Shown here piece after piece: positions 25,881 to 55,018 of a DNA stretch of 64,000 nt. Origin of the DNA: Caldimonas thermodepolymerans (GTDB lineage: Bacteria; Pseudomonadota; Gammaproteobacteria; Burkholderiales; Burkholderiaceae_C); contig NZ_CP064338.1 of assembly GCF_015476235.1 (NCBI RefSeq), positions 2,852,001 through 2,916,000 of the forward strand, in the 5' to 3' direction. The translations under genes were made by a program, and so were the position numbers. Position 1 is the first letter of the stretch. Every line of letters begins with the position of its first letter. The notes beneath the pieces are model-generated. The model ran no database searches and was not told the DNA's origin. It saw only the letters and a list, made by a program, of their open reading frames with translations.

Positions 25881-25992
25881 GGTGGGCTTTCCGGTGTCTG
25901 ACACTGCGGGACACGACGCCCGGCATCGCGAGGACGCGCTGGCTCGTGCCGATGTCAGCCATTGTCTGGATCGGCCCGGAAAACATGAGCCC

Positions 25993-26020
25993 GAATAGCG
26001 GGCCAAAACGCGCCCAATTC
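25993..26020. promoter_or_regulatory. FlhDC-like box for divergent flgB and flgA
   Basis: On the plus strand GAATAGCG (25993-26000), a 12-nt spacer and CCCAATTC (26013-26020) resemble the E. coli FlhD4C2 inverted repeat (AAATARCG half-sites, 10-12 nt spacer). On the minus side an ACAAT core (25961-25965) lies 28 nt from the box and could be the flgB -10. On the plus side TAAAGT (26048-26053) lies 28 nt from the other edge and could be the flgA -10. A shared site for divergent flgA and flgB is the arrangement known in enterobacteria. Confidence 0.65.
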
Positions 26021-26081
26021 GGCGCCTGGGACCGACGCCACCGGCCTTAAAGTGCACGGCATCCCATTGGTGGACCGTGCC

Positions 26082-35607: not shown

Positions 35608-35667
35608 ATTGTCTGGGTCCGCCTCGCGGGCTTGAGGCCGAAAAAAAGGGGTTCGGGCGTCCTATTC
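35608..35667 (-). promoter_or_regulatory. FlhDC-like box and -10 for flhA
   Basis: Reading the minus strand, GAATAGGA (35660-35667), a 12-nt spacer and TTTTTTTC (35640-35647) form an imperfect FlhDC-like repeat. ACAAT (35608-35612) follows 28 nt later, 113 nt before the flhA ATG. A 36-nt block (35605-35640) matches the block upstream of flgB (25958-25993) at 26 of 36 positions. The right half-site is degenerate, so confidence is lower than at flhB. Confidence 0.55.
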
Positions 35668-35710
35668 CGGCGATGGCGCAGCAGCGTCCACCCTCGTGGC
35701 GCCGGCGGCC

Positions 35711-41161: not shown

Positions 41162-41575
41162 TCACGCGGCGTGGGGGTGCGGCAGTTTCATGTGGGACCA
41201 GGCATCGAGCAGGCCGGCCAGCAGGTCCTGGCACTCCTTCATCGCCGCCTCGTCGTTGCGCAGGTTGGCGTGGGTCAGCCGCCCGGTGACGTAGACGTAG
41301 AGGCTGTCGAGGTTGCGCGCCAGCTCGCCGCCGTCCTTGTGGTTCAGCGCGGCGCGCAGGCCTTCCTCGACGATGCGCACGGCGCGCCCGATCGCGCGGC
41401 CCTTGGCTTCCACGTCACCACGCTGCAGCGCACCACGGGCCTCGGTGATGGCCGAGACGGCTCCTTCGAACAGCATCGCCACCAGCTTGTGCGGATCGGC
41501 GGTGGTGACGCCGGTTTCCACCTGGATGCGGCCGTATGCAGTCGCCTGGCTTCTGAAGGGTGCGTACATGGTCAT
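41162..41575 (-). CDS. fliS: Flagellin export chaperone FliS
   Basis: 137 aa. Binds newly made flagellin to prevent cytoplasmic polymerisation. A helical bundle with the family start AYGRIQVETGVTTADPHKLV and LFEGAVSAITEARGALQRGD, then SLYVYVTGRLTHANLRND, fits FliS. A second in-frame ATG at 41569 could also start translation. It lies downstream of fliD beyond a terminator-like hairpin, and just before fliT. Confidence 0.93.
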   Translation of the reverse strand: MTMYAPFRSQATAYGRIQVETGVTTADPHKLVAMLFEGAVSAITEARGALQRGDVEAKGRAIGRAVRIVEEGLRAALNHKDGGELARNLDSLYVYVTGRLTHANLRNDEAAMKECQDLLAGLLDAWSHMKLPHPHAA

Positions 41576-41726: not shown

Positions 41727-43100
41727 TCACTTCGAGTTCGTCTTCGACCAGGCCGTCACCTGCTGCGAGACGTAGTTCGCCAGGCTGTTGAGGCTGCTCA
41801 GGCTTGCGTCCAGGGCCGTGTACTGGCGCAACAGGCGCTGCTGCACCAGCGCCACGCGGTCTTCCAGCCGGTTCTGCTGGTCCTCGTTGCGCTTGATGCT
41901 TTCCTTGAGTCCTTCCGTGCGGGTGCTGATCAGGCCCTCGCTGCTCGTCAGCGCCGCGGCGAGCGAACGGAAACGCTGCGCGAAGCCGTTGTTCTCCGGG
42001 GCCTGTTCGTCCAGGTTGGCGAAGGCCCGGGCCAGCTCGTCGATGTTCTCCAGCGCCTTGGACAGCTTGCTGCTGTTGACGCTGAGCGAGCCGTCGCGCT
42101 GCACCTCCAGCCCCAGGCTGGACAGGTTCGGGAACATCGCCGACGCACCGCTGTCCTGGCGCAGCAGCGTGCGCAGCTGGTTCTGCAGCGTCAGCGTGGC
42201 ACGGTCCCCCTGCAGGGTCCCCGCCGTCTTGGAACCTTCGTCATACTTGGTCTGGGCCGCGATGTAGCTGTTGATGTCGTTGTAGGCTCTGACGAAGCCG
42301 TCGATCGCCTTGCGGATCGATTCGGTATCCAGCGCCACCTTCACCTGCACCGGGCTGCTGGTGACCTGGGTCAGCGTCAGGGTCAGGCCCTCGACCACGT
42401 TGCTCAGCTGGTTCGAAGCCGACTCGATGGCCAGCCCGTTGATGGTGGCCAGGGCGTTCAGCGGCGCCTGGGTCTGCGTCATGCCGCCCGGCACCTGCGG
42501 ATCGTAGGCCAGCGCCTGCAGGCCGGGGTCGCCCGTGGCCTCGATGGTCACGGCATTGGCGACGCCGGTCTCGGTCGCGGTGAACACCAGGCGGGCGCCG
42601 GCCGCGTCCCGCACGATGGACGCGCTGACACCGGCATGGGCCGCGTTGACCTTGTCGCGGATGTCGGCCAGCGTCCCGGCGCCGTCGATCTGCACCTCGA
42701 TGAACGAGCCGTCGCCCTTGGTGAACCTGAGCGTGCCGGTGCCGATCACCGACGAGGTGTCGGCATAGGCCTGGGAGGCCAGCGACTGCGCCTGCGCGAG
42801 CTGCTGGACCTGGATGCTATAGGAGCCGGCAGTCGCCGAGGTGGACGAGGTCACGCCCACCGCGGCATCGCTGCTGGTCGTGGTCGTGCCGCGCCACAGG
42901 CTGAGGTTGGTCAGCTGCGCGGCCGCGTCCCTGAGGTTGGAGGTGTAGCTCTGCAGCAGCCCGAACGACGACAGCTGGGTCGACAGCTTGGACGCCTGCG
43001 ACTTCAGCTGCACGATGGGCTGCCGCTCGAGCGCCACCAGCTGCTCGACGATGCTGGTGACGTCCAGTCCGCTGCCGAGACCGGGAGAAGAGATTGCCAT
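41727..43100 (-). CDS. fliD: Flagellar filament cap protein FliD (HAP2)
   Basis: 457 aa. Caps the filament and guides flagellin insertion. The N-terminus MAISSPGLGSGLDVTSIVEQ, then LVALERQPIVQLKSQASKLS, is diagnostic; the C-terminal coiled coil (QNRLEDRVALVQQRLLRQY, LSSLNSLANYVSQQ) is conserved. The centre is variable. A sigma-28-like promoter lies about 43 nt upstream and a terminator directly downstream. Confidence 0.95.
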   Translation of the reverse strand: MAISSPGLGSGLDVTSIVEQLVALERQPIVQLKSQASKLSTQLSSFGLLQSYTSNLRDAAAQLTNLSLWRGTTTTSSDAAVGVTSSTSATAGSYSIQVQQLAQAQSLASQAYADTSSVIGTGTLRFTKGDGSFIEVQIDGAGTLADIRDKVNAAHAGVSASIVRDAAGARLVFTATETGVANAVTIEATGDPGLQALAYDPQVPGGMTQTQAPLNALATINGLAIESASNQLSNVVEGLTLTLTQVTSSPVQVKVALDTESIRKAIDGFVRAYNDINSYIAAQTKYDEGSKTAGTLQGDRATLTLQNQLRTLLRQDSGASAMFPNLSSLGLEVQRDGSLSVNSSKLSKALENIDELARAFANLDEQAPENNGFAQRFRSLAAALTSSEGLISTRTEGLKESIKRNEDQQNRLEDRVALVQQRLLRQYTALDASLSSLNSLANYVSQQVTAWSKTNSK

Positions 43101-43142: not shown

Positions 43143-43170
43143 TTATCGGCCGCCTGCCGGAAAAACTTGA
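43143..43170 (-). promoter_or_regulatory. Sigma-28-like promoter for fliD
   Basis: On the minus strand TCAA (43167-43170, in context TCAAGTTT, 7 of 8 to the enteric -35), a 16-nt spacer and GCCGATAA (43143-43150, perfect) lie 43 nt before the fliD ATG. The spacer is one base longer than the usual 15. Confidence 0.72.
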
Positions 43171-43229
43171 GGCGGGACGGCCCCGACGACCGGCGCGCGC
43201 GCGCCGACGAGCCTCCCGCCTGTGGAGAA

Positions 43230-44186
43230 TCAGCGCTGCAGCAGCGCCAGCACCTGCTGCGGCAGCTGGTTGGCCTGGGCGACCATCGCGTTGCCGGCCT
43301 GCTGCAGGATCTGGGCACGCGACAGCGCCGCGGTCTCGGCCGCGAAGTCGGCGTCCATGATGCGGCTGCGCGCGGCCGACTGGTTCTCCGCCGCCACCTG
43401 CAGGTTGGCGATCACGTTCTCGAAGCGGTTCTGGATCGCACCGTACTTGGCGCGCTGGTCGTTGACCACGTCCAGCGCCTTGTCGATCACCTTGATGGCG
43501 TTGTCGATTTCTTCACCCACCACCGCGCCGGAAACCGCGGCCGTGTCCGTCCAGCCGCCGATGGCGATGCCGGAGGAGGCGCCGTCCAGGTCGGCGGTGA
43601 AGGCGGTGGCCAGGATCGTGGCCGGGTCGGTGGCGGCGAAGGCACCGGTACCGGTGACCGTGGTAGCGATGCCGTTCAGGTTCTGGCCGGTCAGCACGAT
43701 GTGGTCGGACGCATCGGTGTTGGCGCCCACCTGGTAGACCATCGTCGCCTCGAAGGAGTCCCCGTTCTCGTCGAACAGGCTCTTGCCGTTGAACTTGGAC
43801 GACTCGATGGTGCGCTTGATCTCGTCCTGCAGCTCCCGGAACTCCTTCTGGAGGTTGGCGCGGTCGCCATCGCTGTTGGTCGCGTTGCGCGACTGCACGG
43901 CCAGCTCGCGCATGCGCTGCAGCATGTCGCCGATCTTGCCCAGCGCGCCTTCGGCGGTCTGGGCCAGCGAGATGCCGTCGTTCGCATTGCGAATGGCCAC
44001 GTTCATGCCGCGGATCTGCGCGTTCATGCGCTCGGCGATGGCCAGGCCCGCCGCATCGTCCTTGGCGCTGTTGACGCGCAGGCCCGACGACAGCCGCTGC
44101 ATCGCCGTGCTCAGTGCGGTTTGCGACGAGTTCAGGTTGCGCTGGGCGTTCAGCGAAACGATGTTGGTGTTGATGATCTGAGGCAT
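43230..44186 (-). CDS. fliC: Flagellin (downstream copy)
   Basis: 318 aa. Filament subunit with D0/D1 helices at both ends ([41 protein letters not shown]-terminal [20 protein letters not shown]) and a short central domain, so a small outer surface. It differs from the neighbouring flagellin at many positions in the centre, so it is not an assembly duplicate. Its ribosome site is TAGGAGAG. The upstream region has an FlhDC-like box with an ACAAT -10 and no recognisable sigma-28 promoter, unlike its neighbour. It is separated from the other copy by a terminator. Confidence 0.95.
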   Translation of the reverse strand: MPQIINTNIVSLNAQRNLNSSQTALSTAMQRLSSGLRVNSAKDDAAGLAIAERMNAQIRGMNVAIRNANDGISLAQTAEGALGKIGDMLQRMRELAVQSRNATNSDGDRANLQKEFRELQDEIKRTIESSKFNGKSLFDENGDSFEATMVYQVGANTDASDHIVLTGQNLNGIATTVTGTGAFAATDPATILATAFTADLDGASSGIAIGGWTDTAAVSGAVVGEEIDNAIKVIDKALDVVNDQRAKYGAIQNRFENVIANLQVAAENQSAARSRIMDADFAAETAALSRAQILQQAGNAMVAQANQLPQQVLALLQR

Positions 44187-44256: not shown

Positions 44257-44317
44257 ATTGTGGAAGTCTTTCCGTGAGCGATAGGCCTCGATAAGCGATC
44301 CAAACACCCCCCAATTC
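44257..44317 (-). promoter_or_regulatory. FlhDC-like box and -10 upstream of the second flagellin
   Basis: On the plus strand GATAAGCG (44290-44297), a 12-nt spacer and CCCAATTC (44310-44317) match the flgB box, including an identical right half-site. ACAAT (minus strand, 44257-44261) lies 29 nt from the box and 71 nt before the flagellin start. I see no GCCGATAA-type -10 here. Confidence 0.55.
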
Positions 44318-44322
44318 CACGC

Positions 44323-44347
44323 AAAAAAGCCCGGCCAGGGGCCGGGC
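44323..44347 (-). terminator. Rho-independent terminator after the first-transcribed flagellin
   Basis: On the minus strand an 8-bp stem GCCCGGCC/GGCCGGGC with a short CCT loop (44347-44329) is followed by TTTTTT (44323-44328). It lies 45 nt after the stop of the flagellin at 44392, so the second flagellin gene needs its own promoter. Confidence 0.88.
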
Positions 44348-44391
44348 CAGGGGGTTGCCTCCGGCGGGGACGGAGGCACCTGCCGTTGCGA

Positions 44392-45330
44392 TCAGCGCAG
44401 CAGCGCCAGCACCTGCTGAGGCAGCTGGTTGGCCTGCGAGACCATCGCCGTGCCGGCCTGCTGCAGGATCTGGGCTCGCGAGAGGTTGGCCGTCTCGGCG
44501 GCGAAGTCCGCGTCCATGATCCGGCTCTTCGAGGCCGCAGCGTTCTCCACGCTCACCTGCAGCGTCGCGATCACCGCGTCGAAGCGGTTCTGCACGGCAC
44601 CGTACTTGGCACGCTGTTCGTTGACCACGTCCAGCGCCTTGTCGATCACGTCGATCGCGTTGTCGATCTCGTCGCCGGCCGTCGTGGCAGTGTTGCTCCA
44701 GCCACCGATCGCGATGCCGGTCGCGCCCGTGCCGGTCGCGTTGGTCGTGAAGGCGGTCGCCAGGATCTCGGCCGCGTCGGTGCTGGCGGCCGCGGCGCTC
44801 GCGGTGGTGGCCGTGCCCTTCAGGTTCTGCGCCGTCACCTCGATCTTGTCGTAGTCGTTGGTGTTCGCACCGACCTGGAAGGCCATGGTTGCCTCGAACG
44901 TCGAATCGCTCGAGTCGAACAGGCTCTTGCCGTTGAACTTGGACGACTCGATGGTCCGCTGGATTTCAGCTTGAAGTTCTCCAAACTCCTTCTGGAGGTT
45001 GGCACGGTCATCGTCGCTGTTGGTGGCGTTGCGCGACTGCACCGCGAGCTCGCGCATGCGCTGCAGCATGTCGCCGATCTTGCCCAGCGCGCCTTCGGCG
45101 GTCTGGGCCAGCGAGATGCCGTCGTTGGCGTTGCGGATCGCGACGTTCATGCCGCGCACCTGGGCGTTCATGCGCTCGGCGATCGCGAGACCGGCGGCAT
45201 CGTCCTTGGCACTGTTGACGCGCAGGCCCGAAGACAGCCGTTGCATGGCGGTGGCCAGCGAGTTCTGGGTCCCCGACAAGCTCCGCTGCGAGTTCATCGA
45301 GATGATGTTGGTATTGACAGACAAAGCCAT
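44392..45330 (-). CDS. fliC: Flagellin (first-transcribed copy)
   Basis: 312 aa. Filament subunit with conserved D0/D1 helices ([41 protein letters not shown]-terminal [20 protein letters not shown]) and a short variable middle. A strong sigma-28-like promoter lies 153 nt upstream and a terminator 45 nt downstream, so it is monocistronic. It is very close to the neighbouring copy in the D0/D1 parts (for example [17 protein letters not shown] in both) and diverged in the centre. A GT41 glycosyltransferase gene is divergent from it. Confidence 0.95.
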
Positions 45331-45482
45331 GTTCTAGCTCCTAAAACGTGTATGAACAGCGGCGTTGACCGCCGAATGTTCCTCTGCGAAGCTGTCCTTC
45401 AGGAACGTTCCCTCGGACCGATCTCCTGCCCGGGCCTTCCGGCTCCGGCAGCTTCCGGGTCGCAAGCGGCCCGTTGCACTGC

Positions 45483-45509
45483 ATTTCGGCCGGCTGCCGG
45501 GGAACTTTA
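45483..45509 (-). promoter_or_regulatory. Sigma-28-like promoter for the first flagellin gene
   Basis: On the minus strand TAAAGTTC (45502-45509), an 11-nt spacer and GCCGAAAT (45483-45490) match TAAAGTTT-N11-GCCGATAA at 7 of 8 and 6 of 8. It gives a 5' leader of about 145 nt to the ATG at 45330. Confidence 0.85.
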
Positions 45510-45611
45510 GGGACATCGCGACGTTTTTCGATCGATCGACCCGTTGACAGGCCGGCGGCAACGTCGCGAGCCCTTCGGGCCGTTGCACCCAACTGGCCGG
45601 ATTCAGGCGCT

Positions 45612-45619
45612 TTATCGGC
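45612..45619 (-). promoter_or_regulatory. Second possible sigma-28 -10 upstream of the flagellin
   Basis: A perfect GCCGATAA -10 on the minus strand, but the -35 region (AAAAGTCG around 45632-45639) is poor. It would give a ~280-nt leader for the flagellin or an antisense start near the glycosyltransferase gene. Weak. Confidence 0.3.
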
Positions 45620-45687
45620 CGTTTGGCGGCGCGACTTTTGCCTACAGTGCCCTGCATTGCAGCCATTCCACCCGGAACCTCACCGAC

Positions 45688-47625
45688 ATGCGCAATACCG
45701 CACACCTGCCTTCGTCGGCCCCCCGCAAGGGCCTCGCCCCGTACCAGCACCGCGGACACGAGTTCCTGCGGCAGAAGCAGTGGAGCCAGGCCGAACGGGA
45801 ACTGGCGAACGCGGTCCGCTACGGCAGCCGGGAAGCGCTCGACTGGATCGGCCTGTCGATCGCACGCTGGAAGCTCGACGACCTGGACGGCAGCGTGGCT
45901 GCCGGTCGCAAGGCGCTGGAGCTGCAGCCGGGCAACACGACCGCCTGCATGGTGCTGACCCAGGCGCTGATCGCCCAGCAGCGCTTCGCCGAGGCCGCAC
46001 AAGTGTTCGAGGCCCTGCCCGCCGGGGCACCCCGTGACCACGACTTCCACCTCAACTACGGCATCTGCCTGCTACGCACGCAGCGCCCGCAGGAAGCCAT
46101 CGGCGAGTTCCTGCAGGCGCTGCAGTACCGCATGGACGCCGCGCCCACCCACACCCAGCTCGGCCTGGCGTTCCGTGAACTCAAGCTGTATGAAGAAGCG
46201 GTGGAATGCTTCCGCACCGCCGCCGCCCTCGATCCCCACCACGTGGCCGCACGCGCCTTCGTCGCGCACCTGGACCAGTTCGCCTGCCGCTGGACCAGCT
46301 TCACGGCCAACCGGGAGGAATACCTGCGCGCGCTGCACGAAGCCGCCCGTCGCTGCACCGGCCAAGGCGCGGAGAGCACCCCGTTCGCGCTGGTGGCGAT
46401 GCCCCACACCCGCGAGGACTTCCTGGTGGCGGCTCGCCTCGAGTCCCGCCGCCTGGCACGGGGCGTCAAGCCGCTGCCCGCGCGTCCCCTCACCGCGGCG
46501 GATGCGCGCCGGCGGCTGCGTATCGGCTACCTGTCATGCGACTTCCACCAGCACGCGACCGCGCTGCTGATCACCGAGATGTTCGAACGCCACGACCGCG
46601 ATCGCTTCGAGGTGTTCCTCTACTCCCACGGCGTCGACGATGGCTCTCCCGTGCGCGAGCGGCTGCGCCGCGCGGCCGAACACTTCGTCGACGTGGCCCC
46701 ACTGTCACCGGCGGCGATTGCACGACGCGTCCACGACGACGGCATCGACATCCTCGTCGACCTCAAGGGCCACACCACCGACAACCGCTTCACGACGCTG
46801 GCCTACCGGCCCACGCCGGTGCAGGCCTCGTTCCTCGGTTTCCCCGGCACGACGGGTGCCGATTATGTCGACTACTTCATCGGCGACCGCCACGTCACGC
46901 CGCTGGCGCATGCGGACGGCTACAGCGAGAAGATCGCGCAGATGCCGCACTGCTACCAGCCGAACGACCGCCAGCGCCCCAAGCCGGTGCCGAGCACGCG
47001 CGCCCAGTGGGGCCTGCCGGAACAGGCGTTCCTGTTTGCCTGCTTCAACCAATCGTACAAGATCATCCCCGAGACCTTCGAGGCCTGGATGGACATCCTG
47101 CGCGACGTGCCCGGCAGCTGCCTGTGGCTGCTCGATGGCGGCCCGCAGGCCTGTACCAACCTGCGGGCGCAGGCCGAAGCGCGCGGCGTCGATCCGCAAA
47201 GGCTGATCTTCGGGGCGCCGGTGACTCCGGCACACCACCTGTCGCGCCTGGTGCATGCCGACCTGATGCTGGACACCTGGCCCTGCAATGCCCACACCAC
47301 GGCCAGCGACGCGGTGTGGGCCGGCCTGCCGATCGTCACGCTGCCGGGCGAGACCTTCGCCTCGCGCGTGGCCGCAAGCCTGCTCTACACGCTGGACCTG
47401 CCCGAGCTGGTCTGCGCCGATGTCGAGGCCTACAAGCGGACCGCCGTGGCGCTGGCGCGCGACCCCGCCCGGCTGGCGCAGCTGCGCAGCCGCCTGGCGC
47501 ACGGGCGTGACCACGGCCCGCTGTTCGACAGCACGCGCTTTGCCCGCGACATCGAGGCGCTTTACGCGCGGATGTGGGAACGCAGGCTCGCGGGCCTGTC
47601 CCCGGACCACCTGCCGGCCGCATGA
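45688..47625 (+). CDS. GT41 / OGT-type protein O-glycosyltransferase with TPR repeats
   Basis: 645 aa. TPR-like helical repeats (about 15-215, for example SQAERELANAVRYGSREALD and EAIGEFLQALQYRMD) precede a GT41 (O-GlcNAc transferase/SPINDLY) catalytic region (about 270-640): LRIGYLSCDFHQHATALLI, GTTGADYVDYFIGDRHVTP, and FNQSYKIIPETFEAWMDIL, where the Lys corresponds to the UDP-sugar contact in human OGT. Start ATG 45688 precedes MRNTAHL. Lying divergent from a flagellin gene, it is a good candidate for flagellin glycosylation, but the acceptor and sugar donor are inference. A plus-strand terminator lies about 260 nt after the stop. Confidence 0.88.
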   Translation: MRNTAHLPSSAPRKGLAPYQHRGHEFLRQKQWSQAERELANAVRYGSREALDWIGLSIARWKLDDLDGSVAAGRKALELQPGNTTACMVLTQALIAQQRFAEAAQVFEALPAGAPRDHDFHLNYGICLLRTQRPQEAIGEFLQALQYRMDAAPTHTQLGLAFRELKLYEEAVECFRTAAALDPHHVAARAFVAHLDQFACRWTSFTANREEYLRALHEAARRCTGQGAESTPFALVAMPHTREDFLVAARLESRRLARGVKPLPARPLTAADARRRLRIGYLSCDFHQHATALLITEMFERHDRDRFEVFLYSHGVDDGSPVRERLRRAAEHFVDVAPLSPAAIARRVHDDGIDILVDLKGHTTDNRFTTLAYRPTPVQASFLGFPGTTGADYVDYFIGDRHVTPLAHADGYSEKIAQMPHCYQPNDRQRPKPVPSTRAQWGLPEQAFLFACFNQSYKIIPETFEAWMDILRDVPGSCLWLLDGGPQACTNLRAQAEARGVDPQRLIFGAPVTPAHHLSRLVHADLMLDTWPCNAHTTASDAVWAGLPIVTLPGETFASRVAASLLYTLDLPELVCADVEAYKRTAVALARDPARLAQLRSRLAHGRDHGPLFDSTRFARDIEALYARMWERRLAGLSPDHLPAA

Positions 47626-48298: not shown

Positions 48299-48409
48299 GA
48301 CACATCCTCCGGCAGGACACACCTCCCCATGAGGTGAGCGGATCTTAGGGCCGGACCGGACCCGGCAATGCATCGAACTGGGACCGGTTTGCCGCCCTCT
48401 TCCAGCCAT

Positions 48410-48436
48410 CTGCGGCGCGCCCGATCCGAATAATCG
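48410..48436 (+). promoter_or_regulatory. Conserved promoter-like block upstream of fliF
   Basis: A 27-nt block ending in GAATAATCG matches the block upstream of fliL (54992-55018) at 22 of 27 positions. AATAAT (48429-48434) could be a -10 hexamer, 33 nt before the fliF ATG. No FlhDC-like or sigma-28 signature is evident, so the class is unknown. Confidence 0.5.
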
Positions 48437-54947: not shown

Positions 54948-54991
54948 GCCTGGCGTCGAAAACGACCGATTTCCCTGCCTTTTCCCCGCTT

Positions 54992-55018
54992 CTGAAGCGC
55001 CCCGGATTCGAATAATCG
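54992..55018 (+). promoter_or_regulatory. Conserved promoter-like block upstream of fliL
   Basis: A 27-nt block matching 22 of 27 positions upstream of fliF, ending in GAATAATCG; AATAAT (55011-55016) may be a -10. It lies 68 nt before the fliL ATG within the gap after fliK, so fliL-fliM-fliN probably has its own promoter. Confidence 0.5.

Follow-up and report, generated by a model that had tools for sequence, protein, structure and literature searches.

Do the two flagellin genes that stand in tandem ahead of fliD belong to different tiers of the flagellar hierarchy? Textbook FlhDC hierarchies delay flagellin until hook completion; the original prediction for this DNA was that one of the two flagellins is expressed early and the other late, from promoters of different classes. 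Here, we followed up this idea in the window, i.e. the whole 64-kb stretch of DNA that was analysed, in relatives from the same family and in genomes sampled across the order. About half of the flagellated species have several flagellin genes (PMC6299084), and a class II flagellin bears on why species keep them.

The tandem flagellin genes and their upstream regions

The genes are encoded on the minus strand in the order flaA, flaB, fliD, fliS and fliT (Table 1). FlaA and FlaB are 78% identical to each other and, together with FlgL, represent the only three matches to Pfam Flagellin_N above the cut-off in the genome; against the NCBIfam flagellin models, both score strongly yet remain below those models' own cut-offs. 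The genome encodes FlhD, FlhC and FliA, and FlhC is present in all eight same-genus genomes. Divergent from the flagellins (45544-47625, plus strand), and adjoining them in many relatives, is a gene for a glycosyltransferase of family 41 with TPR repeats, a SPINDLY-like O-GlcNAc transferase, which may glycosylate flagellin. Downstream of flaB (43143-43229, minus strand), a terminator-like hairpin is followed by a T-run that shares bases with the -35 of the fliD sigma-28 promoter.

Table 1 Features of the flagellin locus and comparison sites, in window coordinates
Feature	Position	Strand	Score or remark
flaA, flagellin A, first of the tandem	44392..45330	-	312 aa
flaB, flagellin B, adjoins fliD	43230..44186	-	318 aa, MPQIINTN...LLQR
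fliD, filament cap	41727..43100	-	best FliD model 274.5 bits, below its cut-off of 387
fliS, flagellin chaperone	41162..41575	-	profile match above cut-off
flaA sigma-28 promoter, TAAAGTTC-N11-GCCGAAAT	45483..45509	-	13.5
Intrinsic terminator 3' of flaA	44328..44348	-	9-bp GC-rich stem and T-run, from fold
flaB FlhDC-type box (predicted), GAATTGGG (44317-44310)-N12-CGCTTATC (44297-44290)	44287..44320	-	
flaB -10, CACAAT	44257..44262	-	class II model
flaB leader to start codon	44187..44256	-	
fliD sigma-28 promoter, TCAAGTTT-N12-GCCGATAA	43143..43170	-	14.5
flgB class II promoter (predicted), comparison site, half-site GAATTGGG	25961..26023	-	31.4
fliF class II promoter (predicted), comparison site, in training set	48372..48434	+	38.4
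Class II promoter (predicted) ahead of fliL, comparison site	54954..55016	+	22.9
Class II promoter (predicted) between flhB and flhA, comparison site	35608..35670	-	20.0

Upstream of flaA, the sigma-28 promoter that had been predicted is present; its score exceeds the 99th percentile of shuffled sequences (11.5), and it has the form of a class III flagellin promoter (TAAAGTTT-N11/12-GCCGATAA-like). The strong terminator said to follow flaA was found as well. A second sigma-28-like site, AAAAGTCG-N12-GCCGATAA (score 13.0), is located upstream of the flaA promoter at 45639-45612 on the minus strand, in the gap to the glycosyltransferase gene.

The upstream region of flaB does not hold a sigma-28 promoter above chance: the best score of 9.5 equals the shuffle median, which agrees with the earlier remark that no sigma-28 -10 could be found for flaB and speaks against a hidden promoter of this type. 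The same applies to sigma-54, whose consensus TGGCACG-N4-TTGCW was matched at 8 of 12 positions, with a shuffle median of 8. A generic sigma-70 scan called no promoter in the region, which says little because class II promoters need no good -35. Present instead is a predicted FlhDC-type box with a -10, which in the direction of the gene reads GAATTGGG-N12-CGCTTATC-N28-ACAAT with ACAAT at 44261-44257. This box had been noted as GATAAGCG-N12-CCCAATTC, with one half-site the same as in the flgB box, and we recovered it at 44290-44317 on the plus strand; in the direction of the gene, the shared half reads GAATTGGG. ACAAT is likewise present, but the spacing from the box is 28 nt and not the 29 nt given originally. 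The flgB promoter reads GAATTGGG-N12-CGCTATTC-N27-ACAAT, with a GAATTGGG half-site identical to that of flaB, and the fliF promoter GAACTGGG-N12-CCCTCTTC-N26-AATAAT.

The flaB leader folds much better than its shuffled counterparts (z -3.66), the fold spans the ribosome-binding site, and the sequence is partly conserved among nine related genomes. As the alignment of these nine genomes was without covariation, we rejected a conserved RNA element in the leader despite the single-sequence fold.

Scoring of the flaB promoter with a class II model

To score class II promoters, we used a weight model that consists of a 34-column box, a variable gap and a 7-column -10, trained on 48 sequences from upstream of fliF and on none from upstream of a flagellin gene. 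Five of the 48 training sequences score below 21 (L048, L088, L103, L108, L120); the remaining ones have in common a GAAcTG-...-CTgTTC box, with a distance of 22 or 23 nt from the box model to the -10. Scanning both strands of the window returned fliF, flgB, flaB (25.9), fliL and flhA as the top distinct sites, in this order, so that the flaB promoter is the third-best site in 64 kb. Lower sites scored 15.6 (near fliO), 15.0 (61390, plus strand), 14.3 (12498, plus strand), 14.1 (flhB) and 12.4 (the flgB box read towards flgA), followed by two of about 12. The flaB box alone scored 16.6, compared to a shuffle 99th percentile of 11.5. After removal of the window and L035-L054, the model refitted to the 43 remaining sequences gave 23.8 for flaB and 2.8 for flaA; when the flaB upstream region was dinucleotide-shuffled 10,000 times, a score of 23.8 was reached twice.

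The model was further tested on three stretches of E. coli K-12 (36 kb in total). Here, matches occurred at flgA/flgB (15.8, the top of its stretch), fliA (19.6, and 17.1 in the opposite direction), fliF (18.3), fliL (17.1) and flhB (12.0, again the top of its stretch), all of which are among the known FlhDC targets (PMC12888815); one match of 17.8 within fliI is presumably false. The flaB promoter has the box and -10 architecture of the E. coli FlhDC class II promoters, and one model finds both; in E. coli, the seven canonical class II operons have five FlhDC sites, and an FlhDC motif by itself is no guarantee of binding in vivo (PMC4183435). Across 80 loci of relatives (2.37 million strand-bases), sites of at least 20 preceded fliF in 40 cases, all of them training genes, the last flagellin in 26, and another flagellin and fliE in 1 each. 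A further 18 were located elsewhere, although in L088 and L108 the site belongs to a fliF whose start had been misplaced.

Conservation of the promoter split within the family

We then compared up to 300 nt upstream of each called flagellin gene in 20 relatives, 80 further contigs and the window. Promoters were labelled by the pooled 99th shuffle percentiles (11.64 and 11.5), and 13 flagellin genes were discarded before counting because their start was unclear or because less than 150 nt of upstream sequence was available. Of the last flagellins before fliD (n = 76), 58 had only a class II promoter, 2 only a sigma-28 promoter, 1 both and 15 neither, whereas the other flagellins (n = 109) were class II only in 4 cases, sigma-28 only in 78, both in 4 and neither in 23. 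The fliD genes (n = 96) were mainly sigma-28 only (72; class II only 2, both 0, neither 22). Flagellins that were single at their locus (n = 15) fell into 7 with only class II, 7 with only sigma-28, none with both and 1 with neither. One identical pair of upstream regions is contained in each of the last, other and fliD sets; when the sets were thinned to dissimilar upstream regions, 47 of 60 last flagellins were class II only, compared to 4 of 85 others. Family class II flaB promoters mostly have a gap of 22-23 from box to -10, and on visual inspection, three of the 15 genes labelled neither (L057, L075, L084) have a GAACTG box, but a poor -10. Without the -10, the box exceeded the 99th shuffle percentile in 29/76 last flagellins, 10/109 others, 8/96 fliD genes and 4/15 singles; the box alone is degenerate and discriminates less than the whole promoter.

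Within the genus, seven of eight genomes have a pair with a class II last gene. Only a lone flagellin is present in the eighth (G007), and its sigma-28 score (11.5) lies right at the threshold. Among the carriers are Rubrivivax, Roseateles, Mitsuaria, Ideonella, Aquabacterium, Rhizobacter, Inhella and Comamonas, the latter being placed in another family by NCBI; the last flagellin is class II, for example, in the culturable Roseateles depolymerans and Rubrivivax benzoatilyticus.

Further flagellins were sought throughout 12 genomes, and flagellin stretches from seven of these were analysed. In six (G040-G045), further flagellins are distant from the fliD-adjacent copy: all eight distant genes have a sigma-28 promoter, with scores of 12.0 to 14.5, and none of them counts as class II, the highest such score being 7.4. 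Five of the six fliD-adjacent copies (L127, L174, L175, L178, L179), in contrast, are class II. In the exception (L181, G045), the separation from other flagellins is not certain because the contig ends 199 nt ahead. The seventh genome (G046) has a lone flagellin with a sigma-28 promoter (14.0). Both in the window and in the family, these data strongly support the original prediction of different promoter classes, and from the upstream sequences we regard it as very probable that flaB has a class II and flaA a sigma-28 promoter.

Tandem flagellins outside the family

For comparison beyond the family, loci were taken from a 200-genome sample of the order. A lone flagellin before fliD scored 11.5 to 15.5 for sigma-28 there. 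Two loci resemble the window (G104 and G224), with a sigma-28 promoter at the first gene (13.5 and 12.5) and a second gene without one, whose class II scores are 12.1 and 5.0, respectively. In another family (f3), the order is reversed: in three genomes, it is the second flagellin that has a sigma-28 promoter (scores of 13.5 to 15.5), and it adjoins fliD in two of them (L189, L190; in L188 the contig ends); the first has no sigma-28 promoter in any of the three. Class II scores of this first flagellin are 15.7 in L189, which is above the threshold, 7.6 in L188 and 0.8 in L190. Five loci with two or more flagellins (G032, G177, G109, G170, G039) have no class II flagellin, and G032 and G039 have FlhC despite this. 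Since tandem flagellins vary in this way outside the family, the class II rule is strong within the family and patchy beyond it. As the split recurs in reversed order in f3, its origin or rearrangement may have happened more than once.

Other explanations for the flaB promoter

In E. coli, the fliDST operon is read by FliA and is also bound by FlhDC. By this model, the class II promoter of flaB might chiefly provide an early fliD-fliS-fliT transcript, with early flagellin as a by-product. The family's class II flagellin does usually adjoin fliD, and in 18/56 loci no hairpin with T-run and an energy of at most -12 kcal/mol was found between flaB and fliD, compared to 4/56 between the flagellins, in counts without a shuffle control. 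However, a strong hairpin separates flaB from fliD in the window, fliD has its own sigma-28 promoter, and the two loci L189 and L190 carry a sigma-28 flagellin next to fliD, which makes this explanation unlikely.

Both flagellins could also be late genes, if flaB transcripts came mainly from the flaA sigma-28 promoter through read-through, or if consensus scans overlook a weak sigma-28 site. Terminators leak, and Stenotrophomonas fliC1-3 are described as one operon. Against this stand the strong terminator between flaA and flaB and a best sigma-28 score for flaB that is no better than the shuffle median. Between the last two flagellins, 52/56 loci have such a hairpin with T-run of at most -12 kcal/mol (again without a shuffle control), and by a stricter terminator rule in 26/58 loci versus 19/1,160 shuffles. 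Moreover, five fliD-adjacent flagellins without a flagellin ahead within the examined stretch still have a class II promoter. Hence, we consider late expression of both genes quite unlikely.

It is very unlikely that another sigma factor reads flaB, be it sigma-54, under which flagellins do exist, as FlaB of Campylobacter and Helicobacter (PMC8306008), or the second FliA-like factor of this genome. A sigma-54 match above the 99th shuffle percentile occurred in 0/296 upstream regions. The genome does encode a second FliA_WhiG-type protein above the cut-off, but four genomes with one such match each (G004, G005, G013, G019) keep the class II flaB, so the second factor is not needed. Its gene (C1:367050-367715, L137; 243.9 bits) is distant from the flagellar cluster, and a second FliA_WhiG-type sigma factor is also present in six of the eight same-genus genomes. 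Finally, that the flaB box is a chance or decayed resemblance, with flaB constitutive or silent, is hardly credible, degenerate as FlhDC boxes are, in view of the 2 in 10,000 shuffles and the conservation in the family with its rather constant gap.

A putative early flagellin at the filament base

Taken together, the box with its spacing, the fact that neither sigma-28 nor sigma-54 motifs exceed chance, the terminator that separates the two genes and the conservation in relatives make it likely that the two flagellins belong to different tiers, with FlaB early and FlaA late, and with FlaB perhaps at the base of the filament. FlhDC would bind the inverted box upstream of flaB and recruit sigma-70 polymerase to the -10 at its fixed distance, as for flgB, fliF, fliL and flhA, and FlaB would be produced alongside hook and basal body. 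flaA would behave as an ordinary late gene that is read by the sigma-28 (FliA) polymerase after completion of the hook and export of FlgM, upon which FliA would yield FlaA, FliD and the chaperones. A pool of FlaB would thus be available by the time the export gate turns to filament proteins and would be used first, giving a hook-proximal segment, and FlaA would form most of the remaining filament. For the basal segment taken by itself, which we propose by analogy, we see about even chances. As FlaB is so similar to FlaA, such a segment might be mechanically trivial. The scan of the 64-kb window gave no class II site with a score of at least 12 before fliS; therefore, unless there is read-through from flaB, FlaB would be produced ahead of its chaperone.

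A close parallel is Shewanella putrefaciens, where the FliA-independent flagellin FlaA is located at the filament base and on average makes up 17% of the filament, an exchange of promoters leads to an exchange of segments, and FliS is made without FliA (PMC6299084). There, as here, neighbouring flagellins of different tiers have individual promoters, one sigma-28-dependent and one independent (PMC6299084); as judged from its sequence, the window likewise holds two separately promoted flagellins, one with and one without a sigma-28 promoter, the arrangement that goes with segmented filaments. By this likeness, we infer an FlhDC route to a basal flagellin. The two systems differ in that both S. 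putrefaciens flagellins need RpoN and FlrA, whereas the early promoter here resembles FlhDC with sigma-70, in that the early gene is upstream there and downstream next to fliD here, and in that flagellin localisation is proven there (PMC6299084). FlaB of Helicobacter and Campylobacter is similarly a minor flagellin, enriched near the hook, that belongs to another tier than the sigma-28 major flagellin, but is under sigma-54 (PMC8306008), for which no motif above chance is present here.

The original prediction further called an early flagellin unusual. This holds for FlhDC-type hierarchies, but not in general, as sigma-28-independent flagellins are known under other regulators, namely S. putrefaciens FlaA and Helicobacter/Campylobacter FlaB (PMC6299084, PMC8306008). 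Unlike flaB here, the E. coli flagellin gene fliC is listed as class 3 only (PMC4183435), and the text on the Acidovorax delafieldii FlhDC box names no flagellin among its matches (PMC12888815). A search in open PubMed Central papers returned no FlhDC-controlled flagellin among the best matches listed. Sigma-28-independent flagellins as such are already known. A class II flagellin throughout a family would break the textbook FlhDC rule, and the FlhDC route would be a second regulatory path to segmented filaments beside that of sigma-54. The split also offers a simple genetic handle in culturable environmental bacteria.

Protein features of class II flagellins

We finally compared 195 flagellin proteins, 69 of which were labelled class II, 84 sigma-28, 37 neither and 5 both. 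On the best tree of the 152 flagellins of the class II and sigma-28 kinds, the promoter label changes 37 times, with at least 21 changes forced by strongly supported branches; shuffled labels gave about 50 changes, and the label was more clustered than in nearly all of 500 shuffles. FlaB as a single ancient separate paralogue was unsupported, as the tree mixes both kinds; with the label scattered over the tree, the class II flagellins do not form a single clean lineage. A mixed tree of this kind would result from gene conversion or repeated duplication. In 28/47 cases, a class II flagellin was closer to a class II copy of another genome than to its own sigma-28 partner; FlaB of the window is closer to its partner FlaA.

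The two kinds differ at their ends. MPQT starts occur in 53/69 class II versus 8/84 sigma-28 flagellins, and residue 19 is N in 51/69 class II and S or A in 59/84 sigma-28 flagellins. At the C-terminus, two or more residues follow the final LL in 59/67 class II flagellins (two of the 69 do not have the motif) compared to 19/84 sigma-28 flagellins. The differing positions belong to the D0 ends of flagellin, from which the core of the filament is built. One tentative reading, which we hold to be possible but somewhat short of an even bet, is that a class II flagellin has been kept apart from its late twin in the family and in some lineages beyond, while gene conversion or repeated duplication has kept the bodies of the two proteins alike within each genome. 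The promoters and extreme D0 ends (MPQT, residue 19, the extra C-terminal residue) would then stay different because the class II flagellin is adapted to initiating the filament on the hook. Within genomes (n = 45), the C-terminal tail of the class II flagellin is longer than that of its partner in 32 cases, equal in 12 and shorter in 1, and the window fits this rule, FlaB ending in LLQR and FlaA in LLR.
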